Positions 3,785 through 18,910 of a stretch of DNA of 20,353 nucleotides are shown here, in pieces (positions within the stretch are counted from its first letter, which is position 1; the number at the start of each line of letters is the position of its first letter). Below the pieces are notes generated by a model that was not told the origin of the DNA, ran no database searches, and saw only the letters and a list, made by a program, of their open reading frames with translations. A program made the translations under genes and the position numbers. Origin of the DNA: a virus; IMG/VR virus record IMGVR_UViG_3300030339_000700, positions 1 through 20,353 of that record. One strand, written 5' to 3'.

Positions 3785-5200
3785 ATGGCTATCGACATCA
3801 ACACGGTGATACCTGACTTTTCGGTCTCGATTATCGATCCGAACACCGGGCGTATTGATCCGATCTGGTATCAGTTTCTTCTCAAGATCTTCGACCGAAC
3901 CGAGGTGCTGAAAAACGCCGTAACCGATGTGACCGGCGTCCTGCCTATCGCATCAACGGGCGGAACTACTCCAGCAATCAGCATTCTCCCAGTGACTATC
4001 ACTACCCCAGGCGCAATGCTGGCGCTGGACAAGATCAAGCTTGATTCGGTGACCGCAGGCGCAGCCGTGGCAACTGTTCACGGGACGGCGCCGATTGTCA
4101 GCAGTGGCGGAAATAACCCAACGATCAGCATTTCGCCCGTGTCTGGCATTGCCGATGGATCAATGGTGGCAGCCGACAAAAACAAACTCGACAGCATGAC
4201 GGCGGGGGCCGCTGTCGCTGCGGTGTCTGGAACAGCTCCGATCACGTCCACGGGAGGAACTACCCCGGCAATAGGGATCACAGCGGCAACAGGGGCGGCT
4301 GCTGGATCAATGTCGGCGGCAGATAAAACCAAACTTGATGGGATGGGGACGGGGGCAACCGTAACTGGCGTGATCGGTACCGCGCCAATCATCAGCAGCG
4401 GTGGTGCCGCTCCAGCCATTAGCATTAGCGCTGCCACAACCTCGGCTGCTGGATCAATGTCTGCTGCTGACAAGACCAAATTAAACGGTATCGGCACTGG
4501 CGCCACGGTTACTGGAGTGACCGGAACTGCACCCATTGTCAGCTCAGGCGGCGCAGCACCGGCTATCAGTATCAATGCCGCGACCACCTCGACGCCGGGG
4601 AGTCTATCCGCAGCCGATAAAACGAAGCTTGATGGTATTGCCGCTGGCGCCACTGTATCGGCGGTAACTGGTACAGCGCCTATCGTGTCAAGCGGGGGCG
4701 CAGCACCAGCCATAAGCATCGTGGCGGCGACAGGCAGCGTTCCGGGGAGTATGTCGGCGGCAGACAAGGCAAAGCTCGACCTTATCGCCTACACAACCGG
4801 GACATGGACGCCGGTTTTGACGTTTGATACCCCAGGAAACTTGGCGGTCACCTACAGCGCGCAGGTTGGCGCGTATACCCAAATCGGGCGAACCGTTAGG
4901 CTCGACTTTGCCATCGTCACATCGGCTTTTACATGGACCACTGCCAGCGGGTTTATGAAAATTACAGGCCTACCGATTGCGGCAAACGCCACATTCTCAG
5001 AATTCGACGGGTATATGACATGGGGCGGAATTCCAATCGTCGGTTTTATGGCTCTAAATCTGACGATAGTTGCGGCCAACCCGTCCATAATGCGAGTGGT
5101 CGCCAGCGGAAATAACGTGGCCCGCGCCCAGCTTAGTACCGGCAACACCACGAGCGGTGCTAACGTAACTATCATCGGCCACATTGAATACTTTGTTTAG
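3785..5200 (+). CDS. Fibre-like virion protein with six 49-residue repeats (tail needle position)
   Basis: 471 residues in the place where P22 has its tail needle gene 26. Three parts are visible. Residues 1-47 (MAIDINTVIPDFSVSIIDPN, then GRIDPIWYQFLLKIFDRT) form a probable virion-attachment segment. Residues 48 to about 333 are six in-phase copies of a 49-residue unit with core GTAPI-x-S-[ST]-GG-x-x-PAI-x-I and GSMSAADKTKLDG. Residues 334-471 are a beta-rich C-terminal domain starting TGTWTPVLTFDTPG with Y-T-Q-I-G-R, a pattern common at the tips of phage tail fibres. ADKTKLDG repeats are known from phage tail fibres, where they make trimeric stalks. I infer a needle or central fibre; there is no sequence likeness to P22 gp26. 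Confidence 0.72.
   Translation: MAIDINTVIPDFSVSIIDPNTGRIDPIWYQFLLKIFDRTEVLKNAVTDVTGVLPIASTGGTTPAISILPVTITTPGAMLALDKIKLDSVTAGAAVATVHGTAPIVSSGGNNPTISISPVSGIADGSMVAADKNKLDSMTAGAAVAAVSGTAPITSTGGTTPAIGITAATGAAAGSMSAADKTKLDGMGTGATVTGVIGTAPIISSGGAAPAISISAATTSAAGSMSAADKTKLNGIGTGATVTGVTGTAPIVSSGGAAPAISINAATTSTPGSLSAADKTKLDGIAAGATVSAVTGTAPIVSSGGAAPAISIVAATGSVPGSMSAADKAKLDLIAYTTGTWTPVLTFDTPGNLAVTYSAQVGAYTQIGRTVRLDFAIVTSAFTWTTASGFMKITGLPIAANATFSEFDGYMTWGGIPIVGFMALNLTIVAANPSIMRVVASGNNVARAQLSTGNTTSGANVTIIGHIEYFV
3926..4783 (+). repeat. 147-bp coding repeats, six copies, in the fibre-like gene
   Basis: Six tandem units of exactly 147 bases (49 codons) begin at 3926, 4073, 4220, 4367, 4514 and 4661; the last is cut short at about 4783. 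Copies 3-6 are much alike in protein (AADKTKLDG, SSGGAAPAISI) while copies 1 and 2 have drifted (LALDKIKLD, VAADKNKLD). DNA copies differ at many third codon positions, so the repeats are old and kept by selection on protein rather than freshly duplicated. Confidence 0.9.
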
Positions 5201-5230: not shown

Positions 5231-5797
5231 ATGCGCAACTTTCTACTCATTGGCAAAGGTATTGATACCACCCCGTTGCTGGCCGCAATTGCCCGCAAGC
5301 CTGATCTTTGGACCGCTGACACCTACTTGCACGACTATCCGCAAGGCCCATTCGGTGAGATTGATTCGATCATTCTCCGGTTCCCTGTCAAGTCGGTGAA
5401 GGAAACCGAAGCAGAGGTGCTTGATCACTTTTCAAGGTATGACCAGCACGAATGCATTGACCAGCCAGCCTATGCGCTATTGCCAGAAGCTCGCCCGCTT
5501 ATCATGGGCCTGATGTCATACGTGGGAGGCACAAGGCTCGGGCGCGTCATGATTAACCGTATCAAGCCTGGCGGCGTGATCTTCCCGCACTGCGATACGC
5601 CTGCACATGCTGAGTACTGGTCACGCCACCATATCTGCCTACAGGCAGAGCCGGGCGTCGTATTCCGATGTGAAGATGAGCGCGTGTTTATGGGTCCTGG
5701 CGAGACATGGTACTTCGACAACGCGCTGGAGCATGATGTGACAAACAACAGTCGGACAGATCGTATTTCAATGGTTGTCGATGTGAGGTGCGCGTGA
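5231..5797 (+). CDS. Aspartyl/asparaginyl beta-hydroxylase-like 2OG-Fe(II) oxygenase
   Basis: 188 residues. The C-terminal half carries the double-stranded beta-helix signature: FPHCD gives H120-x-D122, LEHDVTN gives the distal H168, and SRTDRISMVVDVR gives R178, the usual 2-oxoglutarate-binding position. Enzymes of this family use Fe(II), O2 and 2-oxoglutarate to hydroxylate Asp/Asn side chains of proteins. All four key residues are present, so it is probably active. The ribosome site GGGGAG lies at 5215-5220, and the stop overlaps the next start as TGATG. It sits in the place of P22 gene 14, between tail and ejection genes. The substrate could be a virion or a host protein; nothing in the sequence decides this. 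Confidence 0.8.
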   Translation: MRNFLLIGKGIDTTPLLAAIARKPDLWTADTYLHDYPQGPFGEIDSIILRFPVKSVKETEAEVLDHFSRYDQHECIDQPAYALLPEARPLIMGLMSYVGGTRLGRVMINRIKPGGVIFPHCDTPAHAEYWSRHHICLQAEPGVVFRCEDERVFMGPGETWYFDNALEHDVTNNSRTDRISMVVDVRCA

Positions 5798-6252
5798 TGA
5801 TCACAATCATGAGCGAATCGTTGGAAGAGCGTCTGCCAGAGCTGCTGCCGATACTGCCGCTTCACTTCGAGGAACTGGCGCTTAACAAGGATAAAGTGCC
5901 ATTGTCTCCACAGTACGGCATCTATCTCGACCGCGAGCGCAACGGGGAGCTGATGTTCATCGTGGTTCGCGATGCAGGCGAACTGATCGGCTACTTCATC
6001 GGTTTCGTGGCCCCCGGCCTGCATTACTCGACCTGTCTTACGCTTACGATGGATATCTTTTTTTTGAGAAAGGATCATCGTGGCAACAATACGGGGGCTA
6101 AATTGTTCAGAGCCGTTGAGCAAGAAGCTAAGAATAGGGGGGTTCAGCGTATGTTTGTAGGTTCTAAGTGCCACTTGGACGCATCATACCTGTTCGAAAA
6201 GCTTGGGTATGACCGTGTAGAGGTCTATTACAGCGCGTGGCTGGGGGAATGA
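5797..6252 (+). CDS. GNAT-family N-acetyltransferase
   Basis: 151 residues from ATG 5797, coupled to the oxygenase stop by one shared base, with GAGG at 5785-5788. An upstream GTG (5788) falls on the ribosome site and is less likely. The GNAT core is visible: strand LMFIVVRDAGELIGYFIGF (about 52-70), strand LTLTMDIFFL, then the acetyl-CoA loop R95-G-N-N-T-G-A101 with helix KLFRAVEQEAKNRG, and a final FEKLGYDRVEVYY typical of the C-terminal strand pair. It would acetylate an amine using acetyl-CoA; substrate unknown. GC content drops inside the gene: about 55% for 5821-6060 and about 47% after an eight-T run at 6058-6065. Confidence 0.82.
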   Translation: MITIMSESLEERLPELLPILPLHFEELALNKDKVPLSPQYGIYLDRERNGELMFIVVRDAGELIGYFIGFVAPGLHYSTCLTLTMDIFFLRKDHRGNNTGAKLFRAVEQEAKNRGVQRMFVGSKCHLDASYLFEKLGYDRVEVYYSAWLGE

Positions 6253-6746
6253 TGGATATTAATCTTGCTAAAAGCATCTATTCGTACGACTCAGCTACCG
6301 GTAATTTCGCATGGCGGGTTGATCGTGGCTATCAGGCTAAGGCTGGCAACATCGCTGGCACTACGAATGCTCTTGGCTATAGGTGCATACGCTTAGAAGG
6401 CAAGCAGGTTCTAGGGCATAGACTTGCATGGGCCATGACCTATGGAATGTTACCAAGCCAAGAAATAGACCATGTCAATGGCGATCCATCAGATAACCGC
6501 TTGGAGAACCTCCGCGAAGCTAGTCATCAGCAAAACATGATTAATAGATGCATGCCTGCAAATAACACATCTGGCATGAAAGGAGTATCTATTCATAAGC
6601 AGTCAGGCAGATGGCGCGCAAGGATAAAAAACCCGAAAGGGAAATATGAGCATATTGGAATGTATGACAGCGCCGAATTCGCTCATGCTGCATACCAGAA
6701 TGAGGCCCTTAAACTTCACGGCGAATACGCCAGAAAGGAGAATTAA
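6249..6746 (+). CDS. HNH homing endonuclease with AP2 DNA-binding domain
   Basis: 165 residues. The start is ATG 6249 (overlapping the GNAT stop as ATGA) or ATG 6252; both share the purine run GGGGGA at 6243-6248. The HNH nuclease core is IDHVNGDPSDNRLENLREAS (residues 73-92), with D74-H75, N83/N87 and a following QQN at 94-96. After a short linker comes an AP2-type domain (about 108-160): GMKGVSIHKQSGRWRARI, a turn, HIGMYDSAEFAHAAY. HNH-AP2 proteins are free-standing selfish endonucleases that spread between phage genomes by cutting alleles lacking them. The gene is AT-richer than its surroundings (about 47% GC) and uses AGA, ATA and AGG codons, consistent with recent arrival. Confidence 0.88.
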   Translation: MMDINLAKSIYSYDSATGNFAWRVDRGYQAKAGNIAGTTNALGYRCIRLEGKQVLGHRLAWAMTYGMLPSQEIDHVNGDPSDNRLENLREASHQQNMINRCMPANNTSGMKGVSIHKQSGRWRARIKNPKGKYEHIGMYDSAEFAHAAYQNEALKLHGEYARKEN

Positions 6747-6749
6747 ATC

Positions 6750-7517
6750 ATGGTTGCAGCAGCAGTTGTTGGCAGTGCCGTAGTTGGCGCCGTCGGATCA
6801 AGCGTGGCGTCAGGTCAGCAGGCAGACGCGGCAAACAATGCAGCGGATCAGCAGCAGCAGGCCAGCCAAGATGCTCAGAACAGATTGCAGCCGTATGCCT
6901 CGACAGGGCAGAAAGCAATCAACCCACTCATTCAGGCAATGGGATATGAACTCGACCCAACCACTGGGCAAATGTATGCAAATCCGAACTCTACCTTGCA
7001 ACAGAAATTCAACTTCAATGCTAATGATTTGGCAAACAGCCCCGGCTATCAATTCAATATGCAGCAGGGTTTGCGTGGGGTAACAAACTCAGCAGCCAGT
7101 CAGGGCCTTGGCCTATCCGGCGCGCAGCTCAAGGGGGCAACATCGTTCGCGTCTGGTTTGGCCGACAACACCTACGGCCAGCAGTACAACCGAGCGCTCT
7201 CGACGTACAACACGAACTATCAGACGGCAAACAATAACGTCAATAATCTGCAAAACATGGTCAACATGGGCCAGAACTCGGCAGCGGGCCAAGGTCAGGC
7301 TGGAATTACCGGGGCGCAGAACGCAGGCAACTATCAGGTGCAGGCAGGCAACGCACAGGCATCCGGGACAATGGGAATAGCCAACGCGGCCAGCAACGGC
7401 GTAAATAATTACCTGACCTATAACGCCCTATACCCAAGCGCTTCGCAGCAAACTCAGACGCAAATGGCGGGCAGCACTGGGGTTGTTGGAACTGGAAATA
7501 GCTGGAAAGACTATTAA
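6750..7517 (+). CDS. DNA ejection (transfer) protein, P22 gp7-like
   Basis: 255 residues (P22 gp7: 229). Ejection proteins are packed in the head and enter the host envelope with the DNA to make a conduit. The N-terminus (MVAAAVVGSAVVGAVGSS) is a small-residue hydrophobic segment with GxxxG-like spacing, suited to membrane insertion. The rest is rich in Q, N, A and G with few charges, including a QPYASTGQKAINPL motif typical of phage DNA transfer proteins. AAGGAG at 6735-6740 is the ribosome site. The neighbouring order gp7, gp20, gp16 matches P22. Composition returns abruptly to about 60% GC at this gene, marking the right edge of the inserted endonuclease. Confidence 0.78.
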   Translation: MVAAAVVGSAVVGAVGSSVASGQQADAANNAADQQQQASQDAQNRLQPYASTGQKAINPLIQAMGYELDPTTGQMYANPNSTLQQKFNFNANDLANSPGYQFNMQQGLRGVTNSAASQGLGLSGAQLKGATSFASGLADNTYGQQYNRALSTYNTNYQTANNNVNNLQNMVNMGQNSAAGQGQAGITGAQNAGNYQVQAGNAQASGTMGIANAASNGVNNYLTYNALYPSASQQTQTQMAGSTGVVGTGNSWKDY

Positions 7518-7541: not shown

Positions 7542-9074
7542 ATGCCAATTGATCCAACCATAGCTGTCGGGCAAGCGCCTCAGAACTTCACACAGACGCT
7601 TGGCAATATTTCCCAGCTCAAGGGGCAGATGCTCCAGCAAAACCAGCTCACGCAACAGATGGGCGCCAACAAAGCAACATCCCAGGCTATGCAGCAAGCG
7701 TATGACCCTGCAACCGGGCAACTCGACTACAACAAGCTGACTCAAATCATGTCGCAAGATCCGGCAGCGGCCTACAACCTACTGCCTACGCAAAATGCGA
7801 TCCTCGAAAACCAGCAAAAGAGACTAGGCCTTGACTCTGGGCAGTTTGATCTGGCGCTGAAACGGAATACCTACCTACAAGGCGCCATCGGTGGCCTGCT
7901 CAATAAGCCAGAGATCTCGCAAAACGACTTCTATGGCATTGCAGCGGACGCGGTGAAGAACGGCCTGTTACCGGCTGACGTGGCGGCCAAGCAACTGTCG
8001 GGCCTGCCCAGCGATCCTAAAACACTGCGCGAAAAGGCACAGCAGATGTTCTTTCAGGCGCAGGACACAGCCGGTAAGCTCCAGATGATGATGCCGCAGA
8101 ACCAAGTCATCGACACGGGCGGGACCAAACAGTTCGTCGCTGTCGATCCGCGCACTGGCAATCCAACACTCACCGGGCAAATCAACAACAGCATGGCCCC
8201 AGGCGATGCGAACAGCATGGTGCAGGTCTACAACCCGCAAACGCAGTCTATGGTCGTGGTCACCAAGGCCCAGGCCGCACAGATGGCGAACGGCGGCCAA
8301 GGACAGCAAGACCCATCAACTCTCGGCCTTCCGGGCACTGGCGCGAACGGGCGCTATCCGCAACAGCAACAACAGCCAATGATGCCGGGTATTCCGGGCG
8401 GCGGGTTGTCGGCAGGCCCATCTCTGGGCGCGGGCGCGGCGGCAGATGTTACGGCAGCAGGCGCAGCGAAGAACGCGCTGTCATTGCAGGCCAACGCCGA
8501 AGGATCGCCACAGCGCGTTATGTTCCTGCAAAACATGGCGAAGGAATTGCAGAACTTCAATGCAGGCCCAGCCGCAGATTGGACAGCGAAGGCCAAGGCA
8601 CTCGCATTGCAGGCATTCCCCGGTGCGTCGGTGGCAGCAGGCATCGATCCGTCAACCGTGGCGTCGAAAGAAGAGTTTACGAAATACGCCACGAACTTGG
8701 CGATGAACTCGGCGGCAGGGCTGGGCGGCGGCACCGATTCGCAACTGGCGACGGCGGTATCTGGCAACCCTCATGCCGAACTCAGCAGCCTCGGTAACGC
8801 CCAGATAATTCAAGTGCTGACGGGCATCGAACGCGGAGTGCAGGCTAAAAACATGGCATGGCAGAACTCTGGTGTACCGCCTGAGCAATACGGCAAGTGG
8901 TCGGCGCAGTGGGCCAAACAGGTTGACCCGCGTGTTTTTGTTGCGCCTGAAATGTCCCAGGAAGATCGCGCCAAGATGTACAACGCATTGAAACCGGCAG
9001 ATCAAGAGCGATTTATGCAGTCGTACCGCACCGCGATTCAGAGCGGAATCATTCAACGCCCAACGCAGCAATAG
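7542..9074 (+). CDS. DNA ejection protein, P22 gp20-like
   Basis: 510 residues (P22 gp20: 471). It is the middle member of the ejection-protein trio. The N-terminal 150 residues are Q-rich and helical (FTQTLGNISQLKGQMLQQNQ, then LTQQMGANKATSQAMQQAY). A glycine/proline/glutamine stretch (about 245-285, with a run of Q and then PMMPGIPGGGLSAGP) separates this from an alanine-rich helical C-terminal part ending ERFMQSYRTAIQSGIIQRPT. There are no enzymatic motifs. AGGAG at 7529-7533 precedes the start. The call rests on composition, length and gene order; direct sequence likeness to gp20 is not something I can verify by eye. Confidence 0.7.
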   Translation: MPIDPTIAVGQAPQNFTQTLGNISQLKGQMLQQNQLTQQMGANKATSQAMQQAYDPATGQLDYNKLTQIMSQDPAAAYNLLPTQNAILENQQKRLGLDSGQFDLALKRNTYLQGAIGGLLNKPEISQNDFYGIAADAVKNGLLPADVAAKQLSGLPSDPKTLREKAQQMFFQAQDTAGKLQMMMPQNQVIDTGGTKQFVAVDPRTGNPTLTGQINNSMAPGDANSMVQVYNPQTQSMVVVTKAQAAQMANGGQGQQDPSTLGLPGTGANGRYPQQQQQPMMPGIPGGGLSAGPSLGAGAAADVTAAGAAKNALSLQANAEGSPQRVMFLQNMAKELQNFNAGPAADWTAKAKALALQAFPGASVAAGIDPSTVASKEEFTKYATNLAMNSAAGLGGGTDSQLATAVSGNPHAELSSLGNAQIIQVLTGIERGVQAKNMAWQNSGVPPEQYGKWSAQWAKQVDPRVFVAPEMSQEDRAKMYNALKPADQERFMQSYRTAIQSGIIQRPTQQ

Positions 9075-9085
9075 GGGCTTGAGCC

Positions 9086-11710
9086 ATGTCATTTGAGAAA
9101 CTGTTAGACCAGGCCGGGCGCGTTTATAACGTCGATCCGGCCTTATTGCGTGCGCAGATGATGGCGGAAAGCGGTGGCAACCCTAATGCCGTCTCAAACC
9201 AGAACGCGCAAGGGGCGATGCAGATCATCCCATCAACCCAAAAAGCTTTGGGTGTCACCGATCCGTATGACCCGGCGCAGTCCATCAACGGCGCTGCCAA
9301 ACTGATGGCAGAGAATCTAGACCGCTATGGGAACGTGGCGGACGCCGTACGCGCCTATCACGGGGGGACGGACCAAGCTAATTGGGGGCCAAAGACTCAG
9401 GCGTACGCGCAGAAGGTTTTGAACAGCTACGGCGGCGCGGCGCCACAACCGCAGGGAAACCAGCAAATGAGAACTGCACAACAGCCGCAGGATGACTTGG
9501 CGAACGACTTCGCTATGCCGAGTGCAAAAGCGGCGCCGGTTTCAGCGCCAGCCCAGGCCCCGGCAATGATGGGCGGGATTCCGCAGGCCCAGGCCCAGCA
9601 AGCCCCGGCTGATGACTTGGCGAATGACTTTATGATGCCATCCGCCAAAGCTCCTACAGCAGCCGTAGCGCCACAATCGCCACAACAAGCGGCGATGGCG
9701 CAGCAGCAACCAATAAACGCCGCACAGGCACCTAATCCGCATCAAGGTGGAATTCTTAACGGCATTTACAACTATGCCAAGGACGCCATCAATCCAGAAC
9801 TCATCGGCGGCGCCGCAGTCGAGGGCCTGAAACGCGGCGTCGATACTCCGGTCGAGTACCTGACGAAGTGGATGGGCGGCGATTACAACGCGCAGGTAGC
9901 CACTGACAAGGCCCGACGCGATGCCTATGACGCAACCAACCCAGGGGCAGCGGCTACCGTCGCAAGGCTTGGCGGTGAAATGGCAGGCCCAGCCGGTGAA
10001 ATGCTGGGTGCTGGTCGTATTGCAACAGCCGGGGGCAATGCGTTGTTGAGTGGAATGCGCGCCACTGAGGCAGGATCGGCAGTGGCTCCTGCACTGGCCT
10101 CGGCTGGAAACTTCATTTCGGGCAACGGCGGGTTCCTTTCTCGCGTGGCGAATATGTCAGGTCAAGGCGCAGTGGGCGCCGCGCTCACTTCTGGCGGCGG
10201 TAACCCTATTCCTGTTGATGATCAGATGGCCGTTGGTGCGGCGCTGGGCGCAGCAATCCCGGTTGTTGGTGGACTCGTTAGCGGCGCCGGTAAGGTTGCT
10301 AAGGGGATCTATCAAGGAGCCAACCGATTGGCCGGTGGTGGGCAAGATGCAGCGATAAACGATCTTGTGGGCAGCGCTGCACAAAACGCATCCCCAGCTC
10401 TGGCATCGCTACCGAAAGGCGCAACGCTCGATGAGATCGGACAAGCAGCCAATGTAAAAAATGCCGCCTCTCAATCGAACGTGCTGGAAAATGCCTTGGC
10501 CGGGAAGTCATCGGGCGCCCCGGTCGGCGCAGACTTCACGCAATACATTCCTGGCGCACCGCCACCAACGCTGGCGCAGGCGACCGGCAACTCGGGAATC
10601 GCTGAAATTGAGCGAGCGATGAACAGCCGAAACTCTGCTCCGTTCTCTGCGCATGAGGCGGCAACGAATGCAGCTCGCGGAAACTTCCTACAGCAGATTC
10701 GTGGCACGCCTGACACGCTGGCAGAGCTTCAATCAGCAAGGGACACCGTTACGGCGCCTATGCGCGAAGCGGCCTTGTCGAACGTGACAGGACCGGCAGA
10801 CGCCAAGCCAGTGGCAGACCTGATCGATAACATGCTGGCAGGTCCTGATGGTAAGCAAAGCGCCGTGCGCGCCGCGCTCAACAAGGCAAAGGTAGGACTG
10901 TTTGACCCGGCCGGCAACCTAGAGACTGATCCGTCCATGCTTTACGGCGTGCGCAAGGAGATAAACAATCTCATTGACCCGCTCGCAGGATCGCCAACCT
11001 CTGACACGAAACTGGCAGCAGCCCAGCTCGGAAAGGTCAAGGACGCACTCGATAGTGTGATTGAGCCGGTAGCTCCAGGCTTTGGCGATTACATCAAGAC
11101 GTTTGCCGATATGTCGAAGCCAATCGAAGCGCAACGATTCCTGCAAAGCCGGGATCTGACCGACGCGACAGGGACTCAGTTTTCGCTGAACAAGACGAAG
11201 CAACTCATGCTGGCCATCCAGAAAATGCAGTCGGCCCCTGGCGCTAACCCTGCCAAGTCGATTACTCCAGAGCAAATGAGCGGCCTGCAAGCGCTTCACG
11301 CGGATCTCCAACGCCAAGCTAACTCTCAACTAGGGATCGGAAAGAACTCAGCCACAGCGCAGCTATTGAACGGCAATTCGCTGATTAATGGGATTACCGG
11401 GAACGGTGCGCTGGCTCAGTTCGGGCCTCATACCTTGGGCGCTTCGGTGGGCGGAATGGTTGCCGGTCCTTTGGGCGCCGCTGCTGGCGGTGCAGTTGGT
11501 CACTTGGCTGGCAGCGCCATGAACAGCGTTGCCGAGGCCCGATCAGCAGAGCTTAACTCAAAGCTTATCGATTTGCTTTTGGGTAAGGGCGGCCCCGAGT
11601 CGCTTAACATGCTCATGCCGAAGGCGCAACAGGGTACCAGTAATGGGTTTAGTGAGTTGCTTGGTCGAGGGCTTGGCGCAGCGTCTACCACGGGCATAAA
11701 GAACAAGTAA
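9086..11710 (+). CDS. Ejection protein with N-terminal lytic transglycosylase, P22 gp16-like
   Basis: 874 residues, longer than P22 gp16 (609). Residues 1-115 are a soluble lytic transglycosylase domain: MMAESGGNPNAVS with catalytic E28, AQGAMQIIPSTQ, then AYHGGTDQANWG. It would cut peptidoglycan so DNA can cross the cell wall. Residues 116-215 are a Pro/Gln/Ala linker with two copies of DDLANDF-x-MPSAK (136 and 176, 40 residues apart). Residues 255-420 are Gly/Ala-rich hydrophobic segments (AAIPVVGGLVSGAGKVAKGI) that could insert into membrane. Residues 540-760 are helical, and the end has another glycine-zipper segment (GASVGGMVAGPLGAAAGGAV). It is a fusion of wall-degrading and channel functions in one protein. 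Confidence 0.82.
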   Translation: MSFEKLLDQAGRVYNVDPALLRAQMMAESGGNPNAVSNQNAQGAMQIIPSTQKALGVTDPYDPAQSINGAAKLMAENLDRYGNVADAVRAYHGGTDQANWGPKTQAYAQKVLNSYGGAAPQPQGNQQMRTAQQPQDDLANDFAMPSAKAAPVSAPAQAPAMMGGIPQAQAQQAPADDLANDFMMPSAKAPTAAVAPQSPQQAAMAQQQPINAAQAPNPHQGGILNGIYNYAKDAINPELIGGAAVEGLKRGVDTPVEYLTKWMGGDYNAQVATDKARRDAYDATNPGAAATVARLGGEMAGPAGEMLGAGRIATAGGNALLSGMRATEAGSAVAPALASAGNFISGNGGFLSRVANMSGQGAVGAALTSGGGNPIPVDDQMAVGAALGAAIPVVGGLVSGAGKVAKGIYQGANRLAGGGQDAAINDLVGSAAQNASPALASLPKGATLDEIGQAANVKNAASQSNVLENALAGKSSGAPVGADFTQYIPGAPPPTLAQATGNSGIAEIERAMNSRNSAPFSAHEAATNAARGNFLQQIRGTPDTLAELQSARDTVTAPMREAALSNVTGPADAKPVADLIDNMLAGPDGKQSAVRAALNKAKVGLFDPAGNLETDPSMLYGVRKEINNLIDPLAGSPTSDTKLAAAQLGKVKDALDSVIEPVAPGFGDYIKTFADMSKPIEAQRFLQSRDLTDATGTQFSLNKTKQLMLAIQKMQSAPGANPAKSITPEQMSGLQALHADLQRQANSQLGIGKNSATAQLLNGNSLINGITGNGALAQFGPHTLGASVGGMVAGPLGAAAGGAVGHLAGSAMNSVAEARSAELNSKLIDLLLGKGGPESLNMLMPKAQQGTSNGFSELLGRGLGAASTTGIKNK
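9491..9649 (+). repeat. Duplicated DDLANDF-x-MPSAK linker motif
   Basis: Two copies 120 bases apart, at 9491-9529 and 9611-9649, encode DDLANDFAMPSAK and DDLANDFMMPSAK. The DNA copies differ at several positions, so the duplication is not recent. The motif lies in the flexible linker of the transglycosylase-ejection protein and may be a short binding motif displayed twice. Confidence 0.75.
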
Positions 11711-16503: not shown

Positions 16504-18233
16504 GCTGTCAGCTCCGCGATACCGTTTTCGATCCAGACACCACCCACAGTCGGCGGTAGTGCTGGAAGCGCCTTCAAGGTCCCCGACAAAATCATGGTGT
16601 CCATCGACTCCAGCTTGCCCAGCTTGATCAGCATTATCAGTAAGGCCGTCCGTGACTTGAGATCCAGAACATCGAAGCGGTCCAGCACCACCAAACGGAG
16701 CTGACTGATTTGGGCAACAGCCAGCGCGATAAGGCAATCGACACGCCATTTCTCAGACTCGCTGCAAAGGCCGTACAGGCGCCCGCCGAACGTAACTGAC
16801 ATATCGGTATCGATTTCAGCCTTAGACCAGCCACACATACCGGCAAGCACGGACATCGACTGATTTACCGGCGCCATCGCGTCAGCAAGTAGTTCGCCGG
16901 GGATGCCGTCAGGTGCCAGCGCATCACCAACCGAGAGCCACGCCTTAACGTCGGCGTGCGCTTTGGCTGCGTCCTTGGTTTTGGTCACGCATGATTCAGC
17001 GTCATACCGGGCCTGTTGCTTGGCGTTGAACTCTTCACGAACGGCGGTGATCATCCCGGCCAGCTTCTCGACCGATACCAACGCGCGGTCCAGTTTGTCT
17101 TGGTCAACCTTGTCGAAAACCTCGGCGCTGATGGTTTTGAATTGCTCGGCAGCGTTTTCAGATTGCGAGATATCCCGCAGGTCGTTGTCGCGGGTACGGC
17201 GCATCAGAGCAATAGCCTCTTTGGCCTTGGTCACTTCCAATGCTAGCGTTTGGGCGCGCCCGGTGTCAGCTTTCAGACCGGCGAACTTTTCAAGCTTGCC
17301 ATCAACGAAACGAAGGTCCTCATCGCAGCATGGGCACTTGATTGGCTCAGCCCCGGCACGGCACTCGGCCAGAGTTTCAACGAGGGCCGGCAACTTGGCT
17401 TCCCAGACAGCGAGATCCTTTTCCGTCTCGGCCAACTTGGCTTTACGGCGCGGCAGCAGCTCGGCAATTTCATCTGCATCGCTCAACCGTTGGTGCCAGC
17501 TATTCGTTGCCTCAGACAGCCCGCGCTGATAAGCGATATAGGCTAGCCCATCCTCACGGTTTTTCTGGTGCTTGGTTGCCTTTGCAAGCAGTTCGTCCAG
17601 CTCTTCCTTGGTAGGCACCTTGCATTCTAGTTTTGGGGCGCTCCAGCCCTCGGCCACGACGCTTCCCCATACTTGCCCGGTGATTGCCTTCCATGTACCT
17701 TTTGCAGCCGTAGCGCGTGCGTACGCCTCTTTGCTGGCAGCAGGGAAGCCGCCGCGCTGCATAGGCGAGAACTCTTCCACCATTTCTTCGCTAATTCCGC
17801 GCTCGATCAGCTTGTCAGCGATCAGCTTGCCGCTGGCCTTGATGCCTGTCAGACCGAACAGCATGGTCCGGCGTGCATCGGCGTCGATCTCGCAGAACAA
17901 CGACGGGCGCAGCACGAACGGGAGGAACTCAGCCCCGGCGATTTTAGGCGCGCCATGCTCACCCTTTGGAATGCGGAATTCGGCGGCGTCCTCTATACCT
18001 TCGAACGTGACATTGATCCGGCCTTTCTCGGCGCCGTTGTTCAATGCTTGGTCAAGGTTCTTTTTCAGATCAACCCGTGCAGGCTTGCCAAGCATCGCCA
18101 TTGACAGGCAATCGCCAATGCTTGACTTTCCAGCCGCGTTATTCCCGGCCAACAGCGTTACGGCGTTTTTAAGATTGAGATCGGCGCGAGCGATGCCGAG
18201 TACAGAGCTGACGGTGATTTGGTTAATTTTCAT
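16500..18233 (-). CDS. Rad50/SbcC-like SMC-family ATPase
   Basis: 577 residues, near T4 gp46 (560), the phage Rad50. The N-terminal Walker A is GNNAAGKSS (30-38). Two helical, charged arms (about 205-298 and 312-430) flank a zinc-hook-like C300-P-C-C303 (AEPIKCPCCDEDLRF). Near the C-terminus are an SMC-type signature S491-E-S-E-K-W-R and a Walker B LRLVVLDRFDVLD with D518; the usual catalytic glutamate after this D is R519. Such ATPases clamp DNA ends and control a nuclease. No Mre11/SbcD partner lies in the window; the next gene encodes an ExoX-like nuclease instead. It overlaps both neighbours (TAATG upstream, ATGA downstream). Confidence 0.87.
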   Translation of the reverse strand: MKINQITVSSVLGIARADLNLKNAVTLLAGNNAAGKSSIGDCLSMAMLGKPARVDLKKNLDQALNNGAEKGRINVTFEGIEDAAEFRIPKGEHGAPKIAGAEFLPFVLRPSLFCEIDADARRTMLFGLTGIKASGKLIADKLIERGISEEMVEEFSPMQRGGFPAASKEAYARATAAKGTWKAITGQVWGSVVAEGWSAPKLECKVPTKEELDELLAKATKHQKNREDGLAYIAYQRGLSEATNSWHQRLSDADEIAELLPRRKAKLAETEKDLAVWEAKLPALVETLAECRAGAEPIKCPCCDEDLRFVDGKLEKFAGLKADTGRAQTLALEVTKAKEAIALMRRTRDNDLRDISQSENAAEQFKTISAEVFDKVDQDKLDRALVSVEKLAGMITAVREEFNAKQQARYDAESCVTKTKDAAKAHADVKAWLSVGDALAPDGIPGELLADAMAPVNQSMSVLAGMCGWSKAEIDTDMSVTFGGRLYGLCSESEKWRVDCLIALAVAQISQLRLVVLDRFDVLDLKSRTALLIMLIKLGKLESMDTMILSGTLKALPALPPTVGGVWIENGIAELTA

Positions 18234-18910
18234 TATTCAGCAACCTTTTCAATTTTTGCAGTTGATCCGATCCACTCACCATCAGCGATCAATTGGCGCA
18301 GGCGTTTTTCCTGTGCGTCCCGTGCTGCGGCCCGTGCTGCGGCCCGTGCTGCGTCCCGTGCTGCGTCCCGTGCTGCGGCCCGTGCTGCGTCCCGTGCTGC
18401 GTCCCCTGCTGCGGCCCGTGCTGCGGCCCGTGCTGCGGCCCGTGCTGCGTCCCGTGCTGCGGCCCGTGCTGCGGCCCGTGCTGCGCCCCGTGCTGCGGCC
18501 CATGCTGCGGCCCATACTGCGGCCCATGCTGCGTCCCCTGCTGCGTCCCATGCTGCGGCCCGTGCTGCGTCCCATGCTGCGGCCCATGCTGCGGCCCGTG
18601 CTGCGTCATCACAAAGACCATTAGCAAATTGCTCAGCGATATTCAGCGCATTCAAGCTACGCGGATCAGTCATTAAGTGCTGAACTTGGCGAGCGGACCA
18701 AACTGCGAAAAGTCTAAAATCTCGGTCGCAACCTTCAAATACTTGTGCGCACCAAAGCGCATCGTCAAGGCCGTTACTCTCAAGAATGGTCAGAAGTGAA
18801 AGAGGCTCGCCATCAGCCTTGTTTTTCCCAAGTGTGCTGAGAAGTTTTTTCCAGCCTAAAGTACATGGATCACATGCGCGAATTTGGTTCAGCGTAGTCG
18901 TAAATTTCAT
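18233..18910 (-). CDS. Protein with alanine-rich tetrapeptide repeat rod
   Basis: 225 residues. Residues 1-101 form a globular-looking domain with C13-x-x-C16 (RACDPCTLGWKKLL), LSLLTILESNGLDDALWC, and RLFAVWSARQVQHLMTDPRS. I recall similar domains before Ala-rich tracts in other phage and island proteins, but cannot name a family or function. Residues 102-197 are 24 tetrapeptides of the form [AD]-A-A-[RWG]: sixteen end in R, six in W (all in the N-terminal half), two in G. A basic end follows (EKRLRQLIADGEWIG). Period four gives a long alanine helix with a slowly turning stripe of Arg/Trp and Asp. It overlaps the HTH gene (ATGA) and the ATPase (TAATG). Confidence 0.82.
   Translation of the reverse strand: MKFTTTLNQIRACDPCTLGWKKLLSTLGKNKADGEPLSLLTILESNGLDDALWCAQVFEGCDRDFRLFAVWSARQVQHLMTDPRSLNALNIAEQFANGLCDDAARAAAWAAAWDAARAAAWDAAGDAAWAAVWAAAWAAARGAARAAARAAARDAARAAARAAARAAAGDAARDAARAAARDAARDAARAAARAAARDAQEKRLRQLIADGEWIGSTAKIEKVAE
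18320..18608 (-). repeat. 12-bp coding minisatellite, 24 units
   Basis: Plus-strand unit CGTGCTGCGGCC repeats in perfect 12-base register from 18321 to 18608. Variants are GCGTCC for GCGGCC (Ala to Asp on the coding strand), CATGCT for CGTGCT (Arg to Trp) and CCTGCT (Arg to Gly), all one-base changes. Since 12 is a multiple of 3 and the unit has no stop in any frame, all six frames are open across the array. Slippage or recombination would change protein length in four-residue steps without breaking the frame. Confidence 0.95.

Follow-up and report, generated by a model that had tools for sequence, protein, structure and literature searches.

A hydroxylase-acetyltransferase gene pair next to the pilot-protein gene of P22-type and other phages: a possible cassette for modification of an ejection protein

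Introduction

Among the phage systems with which the locus described here can be compared, P22 gp7 has been grouped with T7 gp14, which leaves the virion before the other proteins and makes a pore in the outer membrane, in the part of PMC8954989 that treats these proteins. P22 carries gp14 (DUF2824, PF11039) in the slot upstream of gp7. This protein shares the slot and a length of 151 aa with the acetyltransferase considered below, whereas it has no sequence match to it, and the single pointer to a GNAT-like fold is an AF2 model of pLDDT 44.5. A GNAT-family acetyltransferase is also found in cobaviruses (pc40 of Cobavirus/SIO1, with a homologue in Vibrio phage 464E53-1); the passages of PMC6775973 that deal with it place it beside internal virion proteins, liken it to T7 gp13 and tie it to virion morphogenesis. 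Like the GNAT of the present locus, pc40 and T7 gp13 adjoin internal virion or ejection genes; unlike it, pc40 has no hydroxylase partner.

As for the hydroxylase, a PF05118-type protein (ORF8) of Limnohabitans phage DC33 has been filed under metabolic potential, and the passages of PMC12195039 that concern it make no mention of its GNAT neighbour. The genome of this phage (PQ492659.1; 39 kb) has tailed-phage-type genes, and its assignment to Inoviridae in the record is probably a taxonomy slip. Targeted literature searches returned no paper on the hydroxylase-acetyltransferase pair, on its exchange for cupin-SET genes or on the N-terminal rule set out below; the hydroxylase term also occurs in pelagimyophage and cyanobacterial myovirus papers.

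Organisation of the locus

The stretch analysed (the window) is the 20,353-base virus record IMGVR_UViG_3300030339_000700, which carries P22-type late genes in the order coat, gp4, gp10, fibre, HYD (hydroxylase), GNAT (acetyltransferase), HNH, gp7, gp20, gp16. The features of interest are as follows.

3785-5200: fibre-like gene, 5' neighbour of HYD
5231-5797, + strand: HYD, PF05118-type Fe(II)/2-oxoglutarate hydroxylase, 188 aa, with HxD 120/122, H168 and R178 (Pfam match, ligand alignment)
5795-5799, + strand: TGATG, stop/start overlap of HYD and GNAT, one shared base
5797-6252, + strand: GNAT-family acetyltransferase, 151 aa (PF00583 match, fold model)
6249-6746 (about), + strand: HNH_3/AP2 endonuclease gene between GNAT and the gp7-like gene (Pfam and PHROG profiles)
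6750-7517, + strand: gp7-like (T7 gp14-like) ejection or pilot protein, the proposed partner and substrate (phrog_598 'DNA ejection', 3.1e-27)
6750-6785, + strand: first codons of the gp7-like gene, for the N-terminus that differs with the cassette (N-terminus comparisons)
7542-11710, + strand: gp20-like and gp16-like ejection genes, 3' of gp7 (position, homologues; the counterpart in PfAn1 is annotated as a transglycosylase)

Because this order parallels that of P22 (10-26-14-7-20-16), HYD and GNAT can be said to lie in the slot of gene 14, and gene order thus backs what a sequence-only reading of the window had claimed. The same reading had taken the two genes to be translationally coupled. 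The GNAT start is now moved to ATG 5797, the aligned start (151 aa), which is likelier than GTG 5788 (154 aa); the TGA of HYD (5795-5797) and this ATG overlap by one base, and the resulting TGATG is consistent with translational coupling. The HNH_3/AP2 gene is a free-standing intruder between GNAT and gp7, outside the cassette, and is missing in relatives (e.g., L007 and L012) in which gp7 lies directly 3' of GNAT. Elsewhere in the window, positions 18233-18910 (- strand) consist of Ala/Arg/Asp-rich low-complexity repeats, with long ORFs open in several frames on both strands.

Features of the two enzymes

In a Pfam profile search, HYD matches PF05118 at 57.4 bits (cut-off 22.6). It resembles the Asp/Asn beta-hydroxylase family in this above-cut-off match and in the HxD/H/R set, and differs from it as a 188-aa phage protein. 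H120, D122, H168 and R178, which the earlier reading had listed as a complete set, are in place and identical in 135/135 aligned rows. That most homologues lack the metal ligands, which that reading had named as contrary evidence, is therefore not borne out. The arginine of the set, R178, presumably holds 2-oxoglutarate. These alignments make HYD look intact, and with pairwise dN/dS values of 0.017-0.173 (where computable) the gene is under purifying selection.

The nearest solved relatives of HYD by profile are L-proline cis-4-hydroxylase (4p7w) and AspH. The first of these lends something to the view that the pair has a small molecule or the envelope as its target (an LpxO-like lipid or a free amino acid), the site before gp7 being a tolerated insertion with which the gp7 start codons would travel along; taken as a whole, this view is rather unlikely. 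The HYDs of DC33 and MW202665 match the LpxO model NF033391, weakly and far below the cut-off (24.5 and 21.2 bits vs 500), whereas the window HYD does not match it at E 0.1.

GNAT matches PF00583 at 36.9 bits (cut-off 20.7) in the same kind of search. Seven residues (H23, E26, H76, Y77, D86, R95 and K124) are identical in 129/129 rows, and pairwise dN/dS lies at 0.016-0.163 where computable; as judged from these alignments, this enzyme also looks intact, and its gene is under purifying selection. The acetyl-CoA loop of GNATs has the consensus R/Q-x-x-G-x-G/A. In the aligned rows the pyrophosphate loop keeps R95 (129/129) and the glycine at +5 (G100, 121/129), and it is unusual in that the first glycine, at +3, appears in just 28/129 rows.

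The AF2 model of GNAT has a pLDDT of 95.1, and 956 of the 1000 chains aligned to it in a structure search reach a Z of at least 8. The top match, RimI 7n1l (Z 15.9), is tied with many other GNATs; for this reason the substrate is not given by the fold alone, and the modelled fold leaves acetylation of proteins and of small molecules unseparated. Among solved chains, the one closest by profile is the N-alpha-acetyltransferase NAA30. RimI and NatA-type N-alpha-acetyltransferases are the top NCBIfam/PDB profile leads as well as the top structural match, although GNAT falls far short of RimI membership (TIGR01575, 22.1 bits vs a cut-off of 86.4) and the structural ties extend to other GNATs.

One rival view sees GNAT mainly as a chaperone or scaffold that serves the ejection proteins during morphogenesis, in the manner of T7 gp13, with HYD as an accessory and catalysis secondary or unselected. 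T7 gp13 lies directly 5' of the ejection genes and is labelled a probable scaffold protein in Pfam; the cobavirus GNAT has been proposed as its counterpart in the passages of PMC6775973 cited above; a homologue of the window GNAT in a Vibrio Zobellviridae phage occupies the same slot; and the PDB matches listed for the low-confidence model of P22 gp14 include acetyltransferases. However, seven GNAT residues without exception in 129 rows are more than a scaffold needs, the HYD ligands are kept in all 135 rows, and by sequence the window GNAT matches neither T7 gp13 nor P22 gp14. Both PF11090 (T7 gp13) and PF11039 (P22 gp14) are absent from its Pfam matches, with hhalign probabilities of 0.1 percent and 0.2 percent, respectively. 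A scaffolding role as the main one is rather unlikely. The low-confidence gp14 model is that of a close relative (L033:9387-9842), and on its listed acetyltransferase-type PDB matches DUF2824 may be a degenerate GNAT.

Association of HYD and GNAT across genomes

Phage records, viral contigs and bacterial genomes supplied the 188 loci read, with 135 distinct HYD loci among them. Selection was by similarity to HYD (best 80 of 303) or to GNAT (best 80 of 581) of the window, and the linkage and identity figures are therefore those of near relatives. GNAT is present in 129/135 distinct HYD loci of this best-match sample and lies directly downstream on the same strand in 125 of them; among these adjacent pairs, 94/125 have a 4-base overlap and five a gap of 59-457 bases. 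Conversely, HYD lies upstream of GNAT in all 80 loci fetched by the GNAT profile alone (best 80 of 581). The pair has a cultured carrier, Pseudomonas phage PfAn1, which infects P. fluorescens.

Four of the six HYD loci without GNAT (L006, L056, L060 and L087) end shortly after HYD. GNAT is truly missing from MW202665 (L003) and from a Variovorax locus (L187), which also has no recognised ejection gene. A Vibrio Zobellviridae phage and ct2os315 carry GNAT without HYD, after a head-closure/stabilisation gene. In four Burkholderiales prophages (L183, L184, L185 and L188), HYD and GNAT are about 4 kb apart on opposite strands, with GNAT near portal-side genes.

The distances of HYD and GNAT correlate with those of virion genes at rho 0.13-0.68, against 0.41-0.79 among the virion genes themselves, as expected of a mobile cassette. 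This weak correlation would also suit an insertion acting on small molecules. Median identities are 0.60 for HYD/GNAT vs 0.25-0.32 for the virion genes, a difference inflated by the choice of loci. HYD-GNAT is a widespread unit and the association is well supported; with the conserved catalytic residues, this linkage bears out the earlier proposal of two intact, linked late enzymes, and its suggested survey of co-occurrence comes out in favour of the pair, at least among near relatives.

The pilot gene as constant neighbour

A gp7-like N-terminus is found at most 300 nt 3' of GNAT in 118 of 121 loci with sequence there, when a lenient motif is used. A strict gp7 motif, in a count that omits loci with less than 150 nt after GNAT, is present after GNAT in 93/121 cases vs 4/722 after other genes of the same loci. 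Loci were also collected by a scan with a DNA motif of gp7, blind to the HYD-GNAT pair: among the 69 loci whose upstream sequence reaches 1100 nt or more (the other 11 of 80, with less, are left out of the count), 42 have both genes, 27 have neither and none has one alone.

This neighbourhood extends beyond P22-type phages. The pair also lies 5' of the corresponding ejection gene in phrog_8003 phages and in a Caenibius phage-plasmid with an N4-type coat; in DC33, which has an N-terminal Gly, it is followed by a small Ala/Val-rich protein, and in MW202665 HYD alone lies directly 5' of a 'DNA ejection' gene. That the pair stays with the pilot gene across unrelated architectures speaks against an insertion that is merely tolerated at this site. 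A Massilia plasmid carries HYD and a small cupin before a phrog_8003 protein.

Exchange of cassettes upstream of gp7

Phages without the pair often carry something else in its place: of 29 no-pair loci in which an upstream ORF could be called, 16 encode a cupin-family protein there, and in none of the 135 HYD loci was a cupin found in the gp7-upstream slot. A SET domain occupies the slot in three no-pair phages (L190, L192 and L284), fused to a cupin in L192 and L284 as read. The Pfam SET match reaches 32.6 bits in L284 (cut-off 22.4) and stays below the cut-off in L192 (17.6); that of L190 was obtained at E 0.1, without a displayed score. When this SET domain was used for a search, all 80 viral ORFs fetched (80 of 285) also contained a cupin, and neither HYD nor GNAT was present in these 80 loci. 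The gp7-upstream slot is thus a swap site, with HYD-GNAT and cupin or cupin-SET mutually exclusive in the loci read.

Cupin-SET fusions (L190, L192, L284 and L400-L479) form a large phage family, with 80 members fetched of 285 confirmed, most of them directly before a Met-Ser pilot-type protein; Rhodoferax phage P26218 is a carrier of cupin-SET. Xanthomonas phage PBR31 has an annotated 'acetyltransferase' in this slot (L195:9072-9443). At E 1 it matches no Pfam family, and its sole PHROG match is a tail-fibre one at 0.26; the label is likely a misannotation and the gene is not counted.

The sequence-only reading had left several roles open to the enzymes, namely modification of virion proteins, marking of host factors and disarming of a defence. 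The first is now favoured by the adjacency of the pilot gene, the swaps and the cassette-dependent N-terminus described below; the other two gain no support. Counter-defence or host takeover, in which the enzymes would modify host proteins late in infection, can draw on a weak GNAT match to phrog_2746, a 'host range and adsorption protein' (0.0046), but the pair has a fixed place in the ejection operon and is swapped there for cupin or cupin-SET, not in accessory regions, which makes such a role very improbable.

The pilot N-terminus and the type of cassette

The gp7-like protein of the window starts M-V-A-A-A-V-V-G. Leaderless pilot proteins after HYD-GNAT begin with Met-Val in 96 of 97 cases; outside this count are 28 of the 125 pair loci, which have a leader, reach a contig end or gave no call. 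Where cupin-SET comes first, Ser is the second residue at 54/56 distinct junctions, encoded by TCN in 31 and by AGY in 23; from the 80 SET loci, five without a call and repeats of the same junction are omitted. The no-pair loci of the gp7-motif scan have Ser in 21 cases, Pro in two, Ala, Gly and Thr in one each, and one is unclear.

In further pair loci, V-A-A-A of the pilot protein is preceded by a leader some 11-25 residues long, with Tyr/Phe/His-Cys-x at the end of several of these leaders. Leaders of the form K-x-L-R...D-A-L-L...(Y/F/H)-C-x occur in this position in the pair phages L044, L051, L053, L058, L078, L098 and others, and part of this leader resembles the start of P22 gp7.

On the best tree of 145 pilot proteins, built with the N-termini removed, the pair is gained or lost at least 12 times (27.7 expected by shuffling), and six of these changes are forced by well-supported branches. 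A change in the pair goes with a change of N-terminal type in 5/5 independent well-supported contrasts (sign test p 0.0625); 13 of the 145 rows, whose N-terminal state is a different one, are left out, and the contrasts rise to 11 when weak branches are used.

The main rival for this N-terminal rule is that the gp7 start codons may have been co-transferred with the cassette, whose 3' boundary lies at the gp7 start. This boundary is also what a tolerated insertion acting on small molecules would leave. Serine drawn from both codon classes after cupin-SET goes against such passive carriage; together with Val in 96/97 diverged loci, the use of both classes argues for selection on residue 2, short of proof of coupling.

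Proposed role of the cassette

Taken together, the two enzymes, their fixed neighbour, the swaps and the N-terminal rule suggest that the pilot protein is what is modified. HYD-GNAT is accordingly proposed to be a portable late cassette whose enzymes complete, by covalent modification, the gp7-like pilot protein encoded next to them, a reading given a little less than an even chance. The cassette would be expressed late, and the pilot protein, its putative substrate, would be finished before or during virion assembly; as a member of the P22 gp7/T7 gp14 class, this protein would be the first to enter the outer membrane.

The initiator Met can be removed from Met-Val and Met-Ser starts. Both starts would therefore leave an amine for acetylation by GNAT, whose site is probably the N-terminus of the pilot protein: GNAT may acetylate the N-terminal amine of a mature V-A-A-A end, freed by removal of Met or of the leader. 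HYD could hydroxylate a side chain in the pilot protein or in a neighbouring ejection protein; the conserved N-terminal stretch of the pilot protein, with neither Asp nor Asn, has no obvious candidate site. This stretch, the Burkholderiales prophages in which HYD and GNAT are split, and locus L187 with neither GNAT nor a recognised ejection gene stand against pilot modification, as do the scarce glycine at +3 of the GNAT loop and the fold match that is tied among GNATs.

A broader reading, possible but doubtful, is that the interchangeable cassettes (HYD-GNAT, cupin-SET and cupin) all target the N-terminus of the first-ejected pore protein. Each cassette would set the residue (Val or Ser) and its cap (acetyl, perhaps methyl), and the ejection pore would be tuned post-translationally.

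If pilot modification is true, phages would devote late enzymes to the few pore-forming proteins that open the envelope, and this modification would be exchangeable between lineages. Phage PF05118 hydroxylases, ejection-side GNATs and phage SET-domain proteins would for the first time have a defined substrate and role, and the unexplained role of slot genes of the T7 gp13/P22 gp14 type would become testable. It would also be a warning against the default labelling of genes of the HYD and GNAT types as auxiliary metabolic genes.
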